From: an uncultured Oscillospiraceae bacterium | GTDB lineage: Bacteria > Bacillota > Clostridia > Oscillospirales > Oscillospiraceae | Assembly: GCA_944387205.1 (NCBI GenBank) | Contig: CALXDZ010000013.1 | Span: forward strand, 1-61,303 | Length of the DNA stretch: 61,303 nucleotides | Direction: 5' to 3' | Part shown: one piece after another, positions 4,350 to 12,595 of the stretch | How positions within the stretch are numbered: position 1 is the first letter of the stretch | Layout: each line of letters begins with the position of its first letter | Notes under the pieces: generated by a model | The model's input: the letters and a program-made list of their open reading frames with translations, nothing else | Databases searched by the model: none | What the model was told of the DNA's origin: nothing | Made by a program: the position numbers and the translations under genes

Positions 4350-5378
4350 TCAGCTTAAAATGTCAGCTACCTGAAATACCGACAGGCTTCCGGTCAAATT
4401 CATGGAACGGCTGCACCGTATCTTCAATCGCAAAAACAGCGACCCGGGACAGATCTCCAAAAAGGTGCCGGACGCCCCCAGGGGCGCCTGCGCCTCAGAC
4501 GCCTGCGATGCGTCGGAGCAGGTATCCTCCTCCGACAATCCGATCACCGGGATCACCTGGAACCAATCCCCCTCAGCTGTCTCCGGCTCCTGGACGGTAT
4601 AGGCAGCGCAGTAGATGCCCCGCAACGTCAGGTGCACGGTGTTCTGATCATAGGCAGGCTGGATGGTCCCGCCGTTGAAGAGCGGGTAGAAGGCCAGAAA
4701 ATCTCCGTCGGCGTAGGTCTTAGATTGGACCGTCAACCGAGCATAGGCATTGCTCAGCTGACCTGCCGGTCCCTGGGGGCCTTGCTCACCCTGGGGACCT
4801 TGCGGGCCCTGGGGACCCTGTTCGCCCTGGGGGCCTTGCGGGCCCTGAGGACCCTGCTCGCCCTGAGGGCCTTGCGGGCCCTGGGGACCCTGTTCGCCCT
4901 GAGGGCCCTGTTCGCCCTGGGGGCCTTGCAGACCCTGGGGACCTTGCTCGCCCTGAGGACCTTGCTCGCCCTGAGGACCTTGCTCGCCCTGAGGACCTTG
5001 CTCGCCCTGGGGGCCTTGCAGACCCTGGGGCCCTTGCGGGCCCTGGGGACCCTGCTCGCCCTGGGGGCCTTGCGGGCCCTGAGGACCCTGCTCGCCCTGG
5101 GGACCTTGCGGGCCCTGAGGACCTTGCTCACCCTGAGGACCTTGCTCACCCTGGGGACCTTGCTCACCCTGAGGACCTTGCTCACCCTGGGGACCTTGCT
5201 CGCCCTGAGGGCCCTGGGGGCCAGTCAACCCCCGGAGCCCCTGAGGGCCTCTTTCGCCCTGCGGGCCCGGCTCACCCTGCGGGCCCTGTTCACCCCGGGG
5301 GCCACGAGGTCCCGGCGGCCCAGGCAGACAACAGCTGCAAGGCGGACAACCGCAGCAGCTGGGTTTATAATGTTTCAC
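4350..5378 (-). CDS. Collagen-like repeat surface protein (BclA-like architecture)
   Basis: The protein has 342 residues from a GTG start at 5378, chosen because AGGAGGG lies 7-8 nt upstream and the first residues (VKHYKPSCC) begin a Cys-rich head. Residues 8-17 contain six Cys. Residues 20 to about 205 are unbroken Gly-x-y triplets, mostly GPQGEQ and GPQGPQ, which form a collagen triple helix. The last 130 or so residues form a non-repetitive domain of the type that trimerises BclA-like spore or surface filaments. No classical signal peptide is visible, as in many exosporium collagens. Location on the spore or cell surface is inference. A longer frame to 5531 exists but lacks a ribosome site. 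Confidence 0.85.
4763..5321. repeat. Tandem repeat array encoding Gly-Pro-Gln collagen triplets
   Basis: About 560 bp of nearly identical 9- and 18-bp units (variants of ccctggggaccttgctcg on the plus strand). The array has strong strand asymmetry and keeps frames open on both strands. Such arrays change length by slippage or recombination, so copy number probably varies between strains and assembly may be unreliable here. Confidence 0.9.
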
Positions 5379-5550
5379 ACTGCATCCCTCCTGATACAAA
5401 GTGCTCTCCAGTATATGCCCGGGAGAGACACCTGGTTCAGATGACCATTGACAGACGCATACAGTTTGGGTAAGCTGATGGTAAAAGGCTGGAATGCACC
5501 CGCTGAACAGAGTCAGTGTATCCCGCCGCAAATTTCAGGAGGTAGCAGCT

Positions 5551-7524: not shown

Positions 7525-7563
7525 AAAGAACGTCTGTGGAGTTTTCCACAGACGTTCTTTCCT
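7525..7563. terminator. Bidirectional terminator
   Basis: A 16-bp stem (AAAGAACGTCTGTGGA and its complement) around a 4-nt loop has A and T flanks on both strands. It separates the lipoprotein gene from the convergent riboswitch-controlled operon that ends at 7564. Confidence 0.9.
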
Positions 7564-8706
7564 TTATTCCAGCAGGTCCCGCAGCGTCTCCAGCAGCGTA
7601 GCGGCCTGGCCGGGGTCGGCCACCTGCTGATCCACCGGCAGCAGCAGGCAGGGGATGCCCGCCGCCTCCACCGCCGCCTTGGCCCCGGGGCTGAGCAGCT
7701 CCTCCGGGTCGCAGAACTGCTGCGCCAATATCACCACCGCCTTGGCCCCGCTGCGGCGGGCAAGAGATGCCAGGTGGGCCTCCCGGTCCCCGGGGCGAAA
7801 GCCGCCCGGGGTGCCGCCGCTCCACAAAAGAGGGTCACGGTCCAAGGCGGCAAACTGCTCCGCCAGGGCGGCGCAGCCGTCCGCCCCGTACTCCGGCGCG
7901 TCCACGGCAAAGGAGCGGGACTCGGCGGCCACGTCGTCCGCCGCCACGAAAAAGCCCAGCTCATCCAGCAGGGCCAAAATCCGGGGATGGTCGCAGAGGA
8001 TGCCCGAGGTCACCACCGGGATGCGCCCGCCGTCGCCCGCCGGCAGGGCCTCCAGACGGTCGTTGAGGGCCGTCAGGTGAGCGGTATATTCCCGGGGGTC
8101 GGCAAAGCCGGCGGCCTTGAGCACGGCGCAGCGCTCCGAGGCCGTCACCCATCTGCCCCGCCGCCCCGCCAGGGCGGTGAAGCGGCGGCGCTGGGCGCGG
8201 CTGCGGTTGTAGAGGCCGATGGCCTCTTGGAGCCGGGCCTCCTCCGGCGCATGGTCCGTGAGGGCGCACAGCTGCCCCCACAGCCGCCGGTACTCCCCGG
8301 CCAGGAAGGCCTTTCCGTAGTCCGTGGCCCGGTTCTGGGGCTGGGAATAGGTCAAAAGGGGTAGCTCCGGCACCGCCGCGCGCCAGTTCTGGCTCAGGCA
8401 CCGGAGAGAGTCGCACACCGGCGCTCCCACCGCGGCCCGAAGGCCCTGATAGACGCCTGCCAATGCCAGCTCCAGGTCCGTCTGGACCAGAGAGCACACA
8501 TAGGGCGGGAACCAGCCTCCCGCCCGGCGGGCGGTGGTGGAGGCGCCCCACAGCCGCACCGGCAGCAGTCCGGCGCTCCAAATGAGCTCCTCGGGCACAT
8601 AGTAGGGCAGGCAGCCCACCGCCTGGCCTCCCTGGGCCTGCCACTGTTTGAGGCAGGCAGAGGGCGAGGCGGCAGCCGCTTCAAACCAGCGAAGTTCATC
8701 TTGCAT
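7564..8706 (-). CDS. 2-hydroxyacyl-CoA dehydratase family subunit (HgdB/FldC-like)
   Basis: The protein has 380 residues. ATG at 8706 overlaps the upstream subunit by 11 nt; the longer frame to 8829 is inside that gene. The family hallmarks are visible in order: GCLPYYVPEELIWSAGLLPVR near the N-terminus, PYVCSLVQTDLELAL, VCDSLRCLSQNW, SGILCDHPRILALLDELG and ILAQQFCDPEEL. The Cys in these segments are candidate ligands for the [4Fe-4S] or double-cubane cluster of this family. Partners are the paralogous subunit and the activator ATPase upstream. The substrate is unknown. Control by a TPP riboswitch suggests a thiamine-related substrate rather than an amino-acid-derived acyl-CoA. A reductase of the double-cubane type is an alternative. 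Last gene of the operon. Confidence 0.85.
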   Translation of the reverse strand: MQDELRWFEAAAASPSACLKQWQAQGGQAVGCLPYYVPEELIWSAGLLPVRLWGASTTARRAGGWFPPYVCSLVQTDLELALAGVYQGLRAAVGAPVCDSLRCLSQNWRAAVPELPLLTYSQPQNRATDYGKAFLAGEYRRLWGQLCALTDHAPEEARLQEAIGLYNRSRAQRRRFTALAGRRGRWVTASERCAVLKAAGFADPREYTAHLTALNDRLEALPAGDGGRIPVVTSGILCDHPRILALLDELGFFVAADDVAAESRSFAVDAPEYGADGCAALAEQFAALDRDPLLWSGGTPGGFRPGDREAHLASLARRSGAKAVVILAQQFCDPEELLSPGAKAAVEAAGIPCLLLPVDQQVADPGQAATLLETLRDLLE

Positions 8707-9799
8707 CTTCCCGCGCCTCCATGATCTCCGCCAGGCCCTCCAGGCGGGTGGTGAACTGGGCCGGGGAAAAGGCCCGGGGGTCCCCCTGGTCGCCGCCGAA
8801 GGACACCACCGGCACTCCCAGCTCCTCACTCAGCCGCCGCTCCACCTCCGCCAGCGTGCCGCACCAGGGGCGGCAGCTGCGGTTATAGTGGACCAGAACG
8901 CCCTCCACGCCGTAGCGCCGGCAAAGCCGCACCCGCTCCCGGATGCCCGCCTCCAAAGACGAGCCGTTGACGGTGCCGCAGTAGGCCCGGATGAGACCCG
9001 GCAGGTCGGTATAGCGAAAGCCCAGAGAGGGGGACAGGGTGTCCGCCACCACCAGAAGGCCCAGGCGGTCCAGCTCCTCCACCAGGGTGGAAAGAGAGGG
9101 CCAGCAGGGCGTGCCCTCAAAGAAGATGCGTCGGGGCCTGGGGCCGGAGCGGGGCGGACGGGCCCGCAGCTCCTGAGCCAGGCGCCGAAGCGCAGGCGCC
9201 GTCTCCTCCCGGCACCGGCCCGTCACCAGTAAGGGCATATAGTCAAAGAGCTCCAGGTTCCCCAAAACCGGCCGCTCCAGGAGGGCCGTGTCCATCACCT
9301 CCTGCCAGGCAAGAGCAGTGTCGTTGGCCCGGCGGCAGACGGCGGAAAAAGCGTCCTCCCGCCAGGGCTTTCCGGTAAGCTCTTCCAGGGCGTGAATGAT
9401 GTCCTCCAGCTGGCCCCGGATGTAGGCTACCGTGGCATCAGAAACCGTCAGGCCGTCCTGATAGGGGATGTCCAGTGTCAGCAGCGGCACCGACAGCAGC
9501 CGGGCCATCTCCTGATACCACTGGAGCATATTGGAGCAGATGTTGTCGCAGCAAAGCAGCACGTCCGGCCGGGGCAGTCCGCCGCCCCCCTGCGCCGCCA
9601 GGGCAAGGCCCATGCGGGTATAGGAGCACAGATCGTCGCACCAGCCCAAGCGCCCGGCGGCCTCGCACAAAGCGCCGCTTTGCCCCTTCAGAGCCGCAGC
9701 GGCCCCGGCGCTCTCCGGGCAGACCACCTCCATGTCAAAGGCGGCGGGGAGCTCCAGAGGGAACTTGGTGGACATCCAGGCCACTTTTCTCTCACCCAT
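8696..9799 (-). CDS. 2-hydroxyacyl-CoA dehydratase family subunit (second paralogue)
   Basis: The protein has 367 residues. ATG at 9799 overlaps the end of the activator gene, and no better start is seen. Cys-rich family segments include WCDDLCSYTRMGL, LLCCDNICSNMLQWY, EGTPCWPSL and VLVHYNRSCRPWCG; the last matches the NRSC signature common in this family. It is diverged from the 7564-8706 subunit, so the pair probably forms a heterodimer as in 2-hydroxyglutaryl-CoA or phenyllactyl-CoA dehydratases. The N-terminal third is shorter in the CoA-binding part than I expect of a classical subunit, which leaves open whether a CoA ester is the substrate. Electrons would come from the HgdC-like protein. 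Confidence 0.8.
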   Translation of the reverse strand: MGERKVAWMSTKFPLELPAAFDMEVVCPESAGAAAALKGQSGALCEAAGRLGWCDDLCSYTRMGLALAAQGGGGLPRPDVLLCCDNICSNMLQWYQEMARLLSVPLLTLDIPYQDGLTVSDATVAYIRGQLEDIIHALEELTGKPWREDAFSAVCRRANDTALAWQEVMDTALLERPVLGNLELFDYMPLLVTGRCREETAPALRRLAQELRARPPRSGPRPRRIFFEGTPCWPSLSTLVEELDRLGLLVVADTLSPSLGFRYTDLPGLIRAYCGTVNGSSLEAGIRERVRLCRRYGVEGVLVHYNRSCRPWCGTLAEVERRLSEELGVPVVSFGGDQGDPRAFSPAQFTTRLEGLAEIMEAREDAR

Positions 9800-10601
9800 T
9801 CTGCGCCTCCCGCTCCTGCCGCCGGAAGCGGCGATAGGCCAGCAGGGCGGCCCCCAAAGCTCCGGCGTACACCGACAGCTCCGCCGTCTGCACCGGGCAG
9901 CCCAGCCGCCGCTCCAGGGCACGGACCAGTCCCTGGTCCCGGCTCAACCCCCCGGAGAGGAACACCGGCTCATGGACCTGCAGCCGGGCGCACAGCCCCG
10001 CGGCCCGGGCGGCGATGGAATCGTGGATGCCCCGGACGATGTCCTCCCGGGCGGCGCCGTCGGAGAGGCGGCTGATGACCTCGCTTTCGGCAAAGACAGT
10101 GCAGGTGGAGCTGATGGACACCGGATGCTGGCTGCGCTCATCCAGCTCCGCCAGCTCCCCCATGTCCGCCTCCAAAATTCGGGCCATGACCTCCAGAAAG
10201 CGGCCGGTGCCCGCGGCGCACTTGTCGTTCATGACGAAGCGCTCCAAAATCCCGGCGGCGCTCAATTGCAGCGCCTTGGTGTCCTGGCCGCCGATGTCGA
10301 TGACCGTGCGGACCCCCGGGCAGAGGAACACGGCCCCGGCGGCGTGGCAGCTGAGCTCACTGCGGCTGTCCCCGGCTCCCTCCACATGGGCCCGGCCGTA
10401 GCCGGTGGAGACGATGCAGCCCATGTCCTCCCGCCGAAGGCCGGCGGCGGAGAGCACCTCTTCCACGGCCCGGACGGGGCCGCTGGTGCCCGCCCCCAAG
10501 GGAACGAGGGAGCGGCCCGCAATGCGGGCCCCTCCCTCCAATAAAACCGTTTTTGATGCGGTGGACCCCACGTCCACCCCAAGGGTATAGACCGGCTCCA
10601 T
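9792..10601 (-). CDS. HgdC-type activator ATPase (CoA-substrate-specific enzyme activase family)
   Basis: The protein has 269 residues, the usual length. It shows the ASKHA nucleotide-binding loop DVGSTASKTVLLE at residues 10-22. NDKCAAGTGRF puts Cys128 at the position expected for one [4Fe-4S] ligand, and STCTVFAESEV supplies Cys167. In the HgdC family a homodimer holds one cluster between the subunits and uses ATP hydrolysis to push an electron into the partner enzyme. All required residues seem intact. ATG is 4 nt after the thiW stop, and the end overlaps the next gene, so the four genes are translationally coupled. Confidence 0.92.
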   Translation of the reverse strand: MEPVYTLGVDVGSTASKTVLLEGGARIAGRSLVPLGAGTSGPVRAVEEVLSAAGLRREDMGCIVSTGYGRAHVEGAGDSRSELSCHAAGAVFLCPGVRTVIDIGGQDTKALQLSAAGILERFVMNDKCAAGTGRFLEVMARILEADMGELAELDERSQHPVSISSTCTVFAESEVISRLSDGAAREDIVRGIHDSIAARAAGLCARLQVHEPVFLSGGLSRDQGLVRALERRLGCPVQTAELSVYAGALGAALLAYRRFRRQEREAQNG

Positions 10602-10605
10602 TTGC

Positions 10606-11118
10606 TCAGCCCTTCTCCGCCAGGCGCTCCATGGCGTTCATGGCGCCGGACTTCCGGAGCAGGAACACCAGCACCGAGGCGATGACCACGCCGGTGACCG
10701 CCGCGGCCATAAAGGGCACGAAGTAGGTGAAGGGGCCGCAGGCCTTGCCCAGGACGAAGATGGCAATGGGCCAGGCCAGGATGACGGAGATGACGCCGGT
10801 GCCGATCATCTCACCCAGGCAGGCCAGGCCCAGGTTGGGACGCCAGCGGTACAAAAGGCCCGCCAGCAGCGCGCCGCACATGCTGCCAGGGAAGGCCATG
10901 ATGGTGCCGGTGCCCAGGATGTTGCGCAGGAGGCTGATGCAAAAGGCGGTGCCCAGAGAGTACCAGGGCCCCAGGAAGATGGCGGCGATGACGTTGATGA
11001 CGCTCTGCATGGGGCAGCAGCGGGTAAAGCCCACGGGGACGGACAGGGTGCCGCCGATGACGCCCACGGCGGTAAGGATGCCGGCGATGGCCAGCTTTTT
11101 GACATACTGATGCTTCAT
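10606..11118 (-). CDS. thiW: ThiW, thiazole-specific S component of an ECF transporter
   Basis: The protein has 170 residues with about five to six hydrophobic segments and contains CPMQSVINVIAAIFLGPWY, the characteristic conserved block of ThiW. ThiW is predicted from comparative genomics to import hydroxyethylthiazole using the shared ECF energising module, which must be encoded elsewhere. AAGGAG lies upstream of the ATG. The gene is the first in an operon behind a TPP riboswitch, which agrees with the thiamine role. The downstream HgdC/dehydratase genes are an unusual partner set. Confidence 0.9.
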   Translation of the reverse strand: MKHQYVKKLAIAGILTAVGVIGGTLSVPVGFTRCCPMQSVINVIAAIFLGPWYSLGTAFCISLLRNILGTGTIMAFPGSMCGALLAGLLYRWRPNLGLACLGEMIGTGVISVILAWPIAIFVLGKACGPFTYFVPFMAAAVTGVVIASVLVFLLRKSGAMNAMERLAEKG

Positions 11119-11445
11119 GAAAAGGACTCCTTTTTTCTTCTTTGGTGCGGGCTCCCCTGCTGGGGGCCCAAGGCGTCCGGACAGGCCGCATACTTCCGTA
11201 CAGCGACGCCCTGCCGGGCCATCCGGGCGCGAGACGGGTACACTCCCCCTCTCTTTCTCCCGGAGCGGTCGGAGCTTACTGGCTCCCTCTCATGCCGGAA
11301 CACGGCCTCCCATCGCTGTATCGTCTGCCGGCACGGATGCAGGGCGCTCCCCCTCCGTCCGCCGCGCCCCTACTGAGCGCCGCCGGCACACGGGCGTTCC
11401 TGTCCCTCTCGCCTCCCTTTTCATGTGCTCTGATCTTTGCGGCGC
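11119..11445 (-). other. Long GC-rich leader between riboswitch terminator and thiW
   Basis: About 330 nt of transcribed sequence lie between the riboswitch expression platform and the thiW start. Open frames here (for example 11115-11303) lack ribosome sites and recognisable products. The RNA can form several GC-rich hairpins, but I recognise no second riboswitch. Its role is unknown. Confidence 0.4.
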
Positions 11446-11478
11446 AAAAAACGCCCATGCCAGGAAGGGCATGGACGC
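11446..11478 (-). terminator. Terminator of the TPP riboswitch expression platform
   Basis: On the minus strand a stem of GCGTCCATGCC and GGCATGGGCG is followed by TTTTTT, about 30 nt after the aptamer. This is the standard arrangement for transcription attenuation when TPP is bound. Confidence 0.8.
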
Positions 11479-11506
11479 AACATGAGCCGTTTGGGGCGGC
11501 GTCTAT

Positions 11507-11595
11507 TTCCCTACGTTGGCATGATCCAAATCAGGTCTCAGGTCGAAGCCTGCGCTTCCTCTCAGCCCCCCTGGGGGACTCCCTGTTTTCGTAGG
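11507..11595 (-). ncRNA. TPP riboswitch (THI element)
   Basis: Read on the minus strand, the RNA contains the conserved TPP aptamer landmarks in the right order: GGGGGGCTGAGAGG, then ACCTGATTTGGATCATGCC and the closing CGTAGGGAA. The outer P1 arms CCTACG and CGTAGG pair at 11590-11595 and 11510-11515. It precedes thiW and is followed by an intrinsic terminator, so TPP should switch the four-gene operon off. Confidence 0.95.
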
Positions 11596-11647
11596 TCAGC
11601 ATAAACTCTTTTTTCCCCTCTGTCAACTCTTTTTCGGGAATTTCTCT

Positions 11648-12595
11648 CTATTTCCCCGCCAAAACCGCCAGATAGGCCCCGTAGAGGCCCAGCAGCAGCG
11701 CCCCCTGCCAGCGGCGGTAGCGCCTCTCCAGCAGCGGCGGCACGGCAGCGAGCACGCACAGCCCCAGGCACACCGGCAGGTCCAGCCCCAGCGTCCGCCC
11801 GGAGATGGGCACACCCGACGGGGAGAGGATGGCGCACAGGGGCAAAATCAGAGACAGATCGATGAGATTGGCCCCCACCAGATTCCCCACCGACAGCGCC
11901 GTCTCCCGCCGGACCAGGGCGGAGACAGCGGTGACCAGCTCCGGCAGCGAGGTGCCCACCGCCACCAGCGTCACCCCCACCACGCCCTCGCTGACCCCCA
12001 GCAGAGCGGCTAGGGCCGTGCCCTGGCGGATCAGGAGCTGGGAGCCCAGTAAGATCCCCCCAAGGCCCAGCAGGAACCGAGGGGCAATGCGGGCGGTGCC
12101 TACCCGGCTCCGGCAGGTCTCCAGGGGAGCCTCCAGCACACTGGAGCGGGCCTCCCGAATGCTGCCCCGGACAAAAAGGGCAAAGAGGAGCAGCAACGGC
12201 AGCCCCGCCGGCCAGGTCAGGACGCCGCCCTGGCTCACAAGCCCCAGCAGCGCCGCCGCCAGCACCATGGCCAGGGCCCGGGGCGCAAAGGTGCCCCGGC
12301 GGACCGCCGGCGGAGAGACGAGCACGCACAGCCCCAAAATGAGCCCCAGGTTGGCGGTGACGGAGCCCACGGCGTTGCCCACCGCCAGGTCCGCCTTCCC
12401 CTGGAGCACCCCCAGGGCGGACACGGTGATCTCCGGCAGTGTGGTGGCCAAAGACACCACCGTGGCCCCCACCAGAAACCGGGGCACCCCCCAGGTCTCC
12501 GCCAGGTCCACCGACGCCTCCACAAAAAGTCCCCCGCCCCGGATCATCACCAGAAGGCCCACCAGGAAAAGCCCCGCCGCAGCCACTGTCTCCAT
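11648..12595 (-). CDS. Ca2+/Na+-type cation antiporter (CaCA family, YrbG-like)
   Basis: The protein has 315 residues. ATG at 12595 follows GGGAGGG by about 6 nt. It shows the inverted duplication of CaCA exchangers: the first alpha repeat is GATVVSLATTLPEITVSALG and the second is GVTLVAVGTSLPELVTAVSA, each with the acidic ion-binding residue. Each is followed by a GNxVG(S/A)N-type element (AVGNAVGSV, SVGNLVGAN). About ten membrane helices are expected. It probably exchanges Ca2+ or another divalent ion for Na+ or H+. It ends just upstream of the riboswitch but on a separate transcript. Confidence 0.85.
   Translation of the reverse strand: METVAAAGLFLVGLLVMIRGGGLFVEASVDLAETWGVPRFLVGATVVSLATTLPEITVSALGVLQGKADLAVGNAVGSVTANLGLILGLCVLVSPPAVRRGTFAPRALAMVLAAALLGLVSQGGVLTWPAGLPLLLLFALFVRGSIREARSSVLEAPLETCRSRVGTARIAPRFLLGLGGILLGSQLLIRQGTALAALLGVSEGVVGVTLVAVGTSLPELVTAVSALVRRETALSVGNLVGANLIDLSLILPLCAILSPSGVPISGRTLGLDLPVCLGLCVLAAVPPLLERRYRRWQGALLLGLYGAYLAVLAGK

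Follow-up and report, generated by a model that had tools for sequence, protein, structure and literature searches.

What is an enzyme of the 2-hydroxyacyl-CoA dehydratase type doing in an operon that begins with a thiamine pyrophosphate (TPP) riboswitch and the transporter gene thiW? The question is raised by a 61,303-nucleotide stretch of DNA from an uncultured Oscillospiraceae bacterium (contig CALXDZ010000013.1 of assembly GCA_944387205.1; the whole stretch is called the window here). On its minus strand a promoter, a TPP aptamer and a terminator-like hairpin precede thiW, an activase gene and genes for two dehydratase-type subunits, SubA and SubB. Our analysis confirmed this operon, identified a second structured RNA, R1, in its leader, and found that its conserved core is TPP aptamer, R1, thiW and SubA. 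We propose, at what we judge to be even chances, that this is a thiamine-salvage operon in which a TPP switch and R1 would govern an altered ThiW importer and a dehydratase-type enzyme that converts a thiazole precursor.

The linkage of SubA to thiW was followed with a peptide-pattern scan built from the SubA alignment and run on one genome per species (84,980 species), in which 5 of 11 stretches were confirmed. SubA loci are present in Pseudoflavonifractor phocaeensis An858, an uncultured Clostridium metagenome-assembled genome (MAG) from chicken, Flavonifractor sp. An100, Fournierella massiliensis An912 and an Oscillospiraceae MAG; open reading frames (ORFs) in the loci of GC-rich relatives were called with GC3 weighting. 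All five share the order TPP aptamer (at gathering level), R1, thiW, SubA. SubB accompanies SubA in three of the six loci (window, Fournierella and Oscillospiraceae MAG), and the window activase used as a query had no match in any of the five other loci, leaving the window as the only case of an activase inside the operon. The original prediction had proposed looking in other genomes for the order riboswitch, thiW, activator and two subunits; the linkage of TPP aptamer, thiW and SubA does recur, while the full order is only one variant of it. A search of open PMC papers found none on thiW together with a 2-hydroxyacyl-CoA dehydratase.

The transporter differs along with the gene that follows it. 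The six SubA-linked ThiW proteins fall together on the same side of one branch (bootstrap 95, SH-like approximate likelihood ratio test, SH-aLRT, 90), and position 39 is the best separator: all six carry serine there, and the 42 others carry histidine apart from L213 (41 of 42). This histidine belongs to what we define here as the PxxH motif of ordinary ThiW. It was found in 28 of 29 other loci examined (79 genomes matched; exception L246; read by motif) and in all 28 unlinked loci examined from a further search (69 genomes matched), with some genomes recurring between the search sets. Among the best 120 metagenomic ThiW proteins, 66 are at least 60% identical to that of the window, and these have serine in 61 cases, histidine in 4 and another residue in 1. 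Residue 39 may form part of the lining of the substrate pocket, which is a guess on our part. The exceptional locus L246 (genome G653) has serine in a PxQH motif and no ThiM match, and its next same-strand ORF is, judging from its first residues, presumably esterase-like.

SubA itself forms a clade of 40 rows (SH-aLRT 100) beside the HadB-type alpha subunits, has the HGD-D fold and is closest to HadB in structure ranking. The clade retains HadB residues Cys84, Cys117, Cys346 and Glu55 (C58, C88, C309 and E29 in the window), which we take to be the three cluster cysteines and the active-site glutamate. Ser37, Asn56, Gly226 and Lys347 of HadB are replaced in 40 of 40 rows and Tyr53 in 39 of 40, at positions kept by 32 to 34 of the 34 outgroup rows, and two cysteines, C27 and C196, are specific to the clade. 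Because these pocket residues are changed, the usual (R)-2-hydroxyacyl-CoA substrates appear less likely for SubA. SubB has a clade of its own (11 rows, SH-aLRT 99), whose members from the window, L080 and L081 were seen to be linked to thiW, and Cys128 and Cys167 of the activase are presumably the cysteine pair of its shared cluster. Compared with the (R)-2-hydroxyisocaproyl-CoA dehydratase HadBC and its activator HadI, the window system has the fold, three conserved cysteines per subunit, Glu55 and the activase type in common, but differs in its clade-wide pocket changes, its linkage to the TPP aptamer and thiW and its solo forms, at about 34% identity. The comparison of the subunits by phylogeny and structure that had been suggested thus places them in their own clades, beside the fermentation-type enzymes. 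A double-cubane reductase, raised earlier as another reading, is disfavored: the double-cubane cluster protein (DCCP) model NF040772 gives 68.0 bits for SubB and 28.3 bits for SubA against a cut-off of 350, the operon encodes two unlike subunits, and SubA is nearest to HadB. The sister group of the thiW-linked SubA (L052-L064) consists of alpha subunits with about 450 aligned residues, which align in one piece only from query residue 75 and have a beta subunit adjoining.

The positions of the operon's elements are collected below. The original prediction had a TPP aptamer and terminator in front of thiW, close or overlapping spacing of thiW, activator and two subunits, and one terminator at the end, and all of this was borne out: family models support each gene, thiW and the activase are separated by 4 nucleotides (nt), activase and SubA overlap by 8 nt and SubA and SubB by 11 nt. 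Its account of the leader held for the TPP part and passed over R1.

Table. Features of the thiW-SubA operon and its flanks in the window (positions are those of the window)
Feature	Position	Strand	Evidence
Sigma-70-like promoter (TTGACA, 17 nt, TATGCT)	11598..11626	-	consensus match only
TPP riboswitch aptamer	11491..11595	-	RF00059, 50.9 bits, E 4.7e-9
Terminator-like hairpin 3' of TPP aptamer	11451..11478	-	11 pairs, 7 GC, T-run
R1 structured RNA, between TPP hairpin and thiW	11262..11363	-	R1 model, 100.1 bits
R1 long-range closing helix, predicted 3' strand CGCTGTA	11199..11205	-	pairs with TACAGCG 11320-11314
thiW, energy-coupling factor (ECF) transporter S component	10606..11118	-	TIGR02359, 149.8 bits (cut-off 84.35); Ser39
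Acyl-CoA dehydratase activase (HgdC/HadI type)	9792..10601	-	TIGR00241, 263.1 bits (cut-off 125.4); Cys128, Cys167
SubA, HadB/HgdA-type alpha subunit, thiW-linked clade	8696..9799	-	PF06050, 194.6 bits (cut-off 28.4)
SubB, HadC/HgdB-type beta subunit	7564..8706	-	PF06050, 184.2 bits (cut-off 28.4)
Terminator-like hairpin, nearly symmetric, between convergent genes	7525..7560	.	scored on + strand

The promoter-like site lies directly upstream of the TPP aptamer. The aptamer scores below the Rfam gathering threshold of 54.3 bits and hence is not among the gathering-level matches of the whole window; its alignment spans model positions 1-105 with the UGAGA, ACCUGAU and CGUAGGGA cores, and the outer P1 pairs are mostly non-standard. 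The five relatives (L077-L081) carry a TPP aptamer at the corresponding place that does exceed gathering (59.6-62.6 bits). At the start of the window match, CCUACG (11595-11590) is complementary to CGUAGG in the core (11515-11510), a possible anti-aptamer pairing; with the predicted promoter ending at 11598, these bases may sit at or before the transcript start. At the far end of the operon, the hairpin is followed by a T-run on the minus strand as well, so it can serve both convergent genes.

The place that SubA occupies is also informative. Taking the best locus per genome, 29 of 150 family genomes exceeded the TIGR02359 cut-off (a second match in G064 lies outside this set), and in the sequence examined thiW is followed by ThiM in 22 of these loci, by SubA in two, and by neither as far as detected in five. 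SubA comes directly after thiW in G039 and after the activase in the window, and thus stands at about the usual place of the thiazole kinase. Thiazole salvage operons of the ThiW-ThiM kind share with ours a TPP leader, often with R1, and thiW itself; in those thiM follows and ThiW has its histidine, whereas here SubA follows and residue 39 is serine. A ThiM (PF02110) match is present in all 12 genomes compared, six with SubA and six thiW genomes without it, and in all six SubA genomes thiM lies on a separate contig. It stands behind a TPP aptamer of its own in G000, G039, G237 and G400. In the window genome, G000, that aptamer is below gathering at 51.9 bits and a ThiE-like ORF adjoins thiM; no TPP aptamer was seen beside thiM in G401 and G402. 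A full-length ThiG was found in one of the 12 genomes (G022, which lacks SubA), the other matches covering at most 106 of 247 positions. None of the six SubA genomes has one, with matches of at most 91 of 247 positions, a weak absence in that G000 is 86% complete and some of the genomes are MAGs. ThiC is present in four of the six SubA genomes and two of the six others. Since no SubA genome shows a thiazole synthase of its own, these organisms probably rely on imported thiazole and salvage.

The second RNA of the leader, R1, was found by aligning the leaders of relatives, and its model was built from 23 leaders with 21 pairs. It consists of a 5' hairpin with a conserved GGAGCG loop followed by a domain that resembles an arm of the TPP aptamer (GCGAUGGGA..UGAGAGG..GACCG). 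In a MAFFT alignment of the 23 leaders, 95.7% of R1 cells pair, against a shuffled mean of 87.1 and at most 47.2% in slid controls, and 12 pairs show changes on both sides. With 40 full matches, 17 of the 21 pairs have changes on both sides and 143 cells are double changes (shuffled mean 39.3); this larger alignment was fitted to the structure, so that the 23-leader test is the fairer one. The stretches GGAGCGC, GCGA, GGGA, GUG-UU and UGAGAG are conserved over the 40 sequences, which come from several families. A long-range closing helix (ACAGCG/CGCUGU) is present in many leaders; when each leader was compared with 200 mononucleotide shuffles, the helix score reached the top 2% for 15 of 40. 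Folded as single sequences, four R1 examples showed no significant stability (z -1.22 to 0.16); the case for R1 rests on covariation. Downstream of R1, a simple scan of 230 nt that kept the best match only flagged a terminator-like hairpin in 5 of 40 leaders, two of them within 60 nt, and inspection by eye revealed no shared pattern of a hairpin masking the ribosome-binding site.

R1 is not confined to SubA operons. It occurs in 21 of the 29 same-family thiW leaders, including the window and G039 (L005 is cut by a contig end), and the other eight have no strong match. Among 391 genomes of the class, 52 gave an R1 match at E-values up to 1e-3, of which only 18, in 11 families, exceeded 57 bits; among the weaker matches that were checked, those of L216, L217 and L219 fall on TPP aptamers. 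The strong matches lie upstream of thiW in 17 of 18 cases and upstream of thiM-thiE in one (L209). Of the 17 strong-match loci scanned, 14 have a TPP aptamer at gathering level ahead of R1 (L200, L207 and L212 do not). Two ThiW searches, of the class and the order, found R1 in 7 of 58 loci, in genomes that partly overlap the earlier counts. In L209 and L215 an extra ORF, which from its first residues we take to be CytX-like, separates the TPP aptamer from R1. In L219 and L216 there are two consecutive gathering-level TPP aptamers, both weakly matched by the R1 model, ahead of ORFs that presumably are thiF and thiG.

Known riboswitches offer two points of comparison. Run at E-values up to 1, the R1 model also picks up TPP aptamers: of 19 at gathering level it reports 18 (it misses L213). 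Five of the 19 come from loci that were chosen for R1 matches, and without these it finds 13 of 14. A number of the matches span R1 positions 48-92 only, the 3' domain, which makes this domain TPP-arm-like. Its arm is laid out as helix-UGAGA-helix-GACC, just like the arm of RF00059 that we assume senses the pyrimidine. The other arm of the TPP aptamer (ACCUGAU...CGUAGGGA), presumably the one that senses pyrophosphate, is absent from the 40 aligned R1 sequences, which have the 5' hairpin with its GGAGCG loop. RF00059 at E-values up to 1 gave no match to the window R1, a scan of window positions 11100-11700 against Rfam at the same limit returned only the TPP aptamer, and gathering-level Rfam scans of the five relatives and 20 further loci likewise reported only TPP. 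Tandem TPP aptamers are reported at many thi genes, according to the text of PMC12452182, and these might include cases of R1. An alternative view of R1 is that it arose as a tandem copy of the TPP aptamer, has decayed and lacks a ligand of its own. The TPP-like 3' arm would fit this, but decay would be expected to lose the conserved stretches and the double changes seen over 40 sequences, and we consider it very improbable. The other comparison is the validated riboswitch for hydroxymethylpyrimidine pyrophosphate (HMP-PP), or thiS motif, described in the text of PMC6478431 as standing in tandem with a TPP riboswitch at thiW of Clostridium lundense. Like R1, it lies between a TPP riboswitch and thiW and is tied to thiazole supply. 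As that text describes it, the thiS motif is small and its aptamer forms part of an intrinsic terminator, whereas R1 comprises several helices and, in 35 of 40 leaders, is followed by no flagged terminator-like hairpin within 230 nt; the identity of R1 with the thiS motif was rejected on this architecture. R1 was not met in searches of open PMC text (figures and supplements aside) on thiW, HMP-PP and TPP variants, and the main text of motif-discovery papers, searched by term, mentions neither thiW nor TPP. R1 may be a class of its own. With a TPP-like pyrimidine arm and no pyrophosphate arm, its ligand is likely to bear a pyrimidine, and HMP-PP is a candidate because the gene set (thiazole uptake, kinase) fits, as it does at the validated HMP-PP riboswitch in the text of PMC6478431.

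A model of the operon can be drawn from these features. In TPP riboswitches a TPP-bound fold and a transcription stop are established for the class; here, plentiful TPP would fold the aptamer, and transcription would end at the 11478-11451 hairpin. On read-through R1 would fold, with a pyrimidine-bearing precursor such as HMP-PP as its likeliest ligand because of the pyrimidine arm, the place after TPP aptamers and the thiazole-salvage genes, giving a two-input switch that we liken to the TPP/HMP-PP tandem at thiW of C. lundense as the text of PMC6478431 presents it. ThiW, with its serine at position 39, would bring in a different thiazole compound from the one usually imported. SubA, with a predicted [4Fe-4S] cluster on Cys58, Cys88 and Cys309, would be reduced by the ATP-driven activase, encoded in the operon in the window and borrowed elsewhere, and would alter the imported compound by one-electron chemistry, with SubB as partner where present. 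The product is likely hydroxyethylthiazole (HET) or its phosphate, and ThiM, encoded elsewhere, would complete the thiazole phosphate. Both the His39-to-Ser change in ThiW and the place of SubA at the thiM site strengthen the earlier suggestion of an enzyme working on a thiazole precursor, with the substrate itself still a matter of inference.

Several observations weigh against this model of thiazole salvage. SubA is rare, with homologs above 55% identity in 3 of 400 family genomes (G000, G039 and G237) and the next at 45% or less, and in three of the six loci it occurs without SubB and activase, so that an HgdAB-like mechanism cannot be assumed there. Ordinary thiW-thiM operons also carry R1 upstream, and R1 is hence not specific to the dehydratase; in 8 of 40 leaders its closing helix does not outscore the median shuffle. 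Four of the 66 close metagenomic ThiW proteins keep histidine, L213 and L246 have Ser39 with no SubA link in the sequence examined, and a second metagenomic serine group (RCYPMQS; P0240, P0243, P0247, P0253, P0261 and others) lies at about 50-57% identity; class and order searches with P0243 found no ThiW of that group among the loci examined. The solo loci also lend something to the view that SubA is a single-subunit reductase or electron-transfer protein for another thiamine enzyme, with SubB and activase optional. Genome G400 (the chicken MAG, of unstated completeness) has no PF06050 match other than SubA, and the clade-specific cysteines C27 and C196 would suit such a protein. The frames of G400 that gave activase-family matches over the cut-off are long, at 1001 and 1566 residues. 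Further PF06050 matches are present in G039 (four) and G237 (five, one below the cut-off), and in those two SubA may thus have a partner in trans. For the window, L080 and L081, the clades of SubA and SubB correspond, as though the two had been inherited together and SubB lost later; we regard the single-subunit view as improbable.

For all its likeness to HadBC/HadI, we also think it unlikely that the system is just a fermentation enzyme for amino acids, an (R)-2-hydroxyacyl-CoA dehydratase of the ordinary kind that came to lie behind thiW and is merely co-transcribed. SubA follows thiW in all six loci while activase and SubB vary, its clade-wide changes fall at positions that nearly all outgroup rows keep, and ThiW carries a matching change. 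Moreover, no CoA-transferase-like ORF was noticed beside SubA, whereas four of seven sister regions (L067, L070, L071 and L072) have one, a label that we presume from the first residues of those ORFs.

If the salvage model is correct, a thiamine-controlled enzyme of the 2-hydroxyacyl-CoA dehydratase type would extend low-potential radical chemistry to the salvage of a vitamin and imply an unlisted thiazole vitamer. R1, a covarying RNA in 11 families of one class with no Rfam match in the scans made, would as a TPP-derived second sensor be a rare case of one riboswitch class yielding another. A bolder combination, which we offer tentatively and would sooner doubt than defend, is that R1 is a new TPP-derived riboswitch class sensing HMP-PP or another free pyrimidine precursor and that vitamin B1 salvage has in SubA its first ketyl-radical enzyme, one of the 2-hydroxyacyl-CoA dehydratase type. 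R1 would then have retained the pyrimidine arm and replaced the pyrophosphate arm, thiazole uptake would be on only with pyrimidine waiting and TPP low, and the substrate of SubA would be the thiazole vitamer delivered by the Ser39 ThiW.

Elsewhere in the window, a minus-strand ORF at 4350-5531 contains a long collagen-like GPQGEQGPQ repeat.

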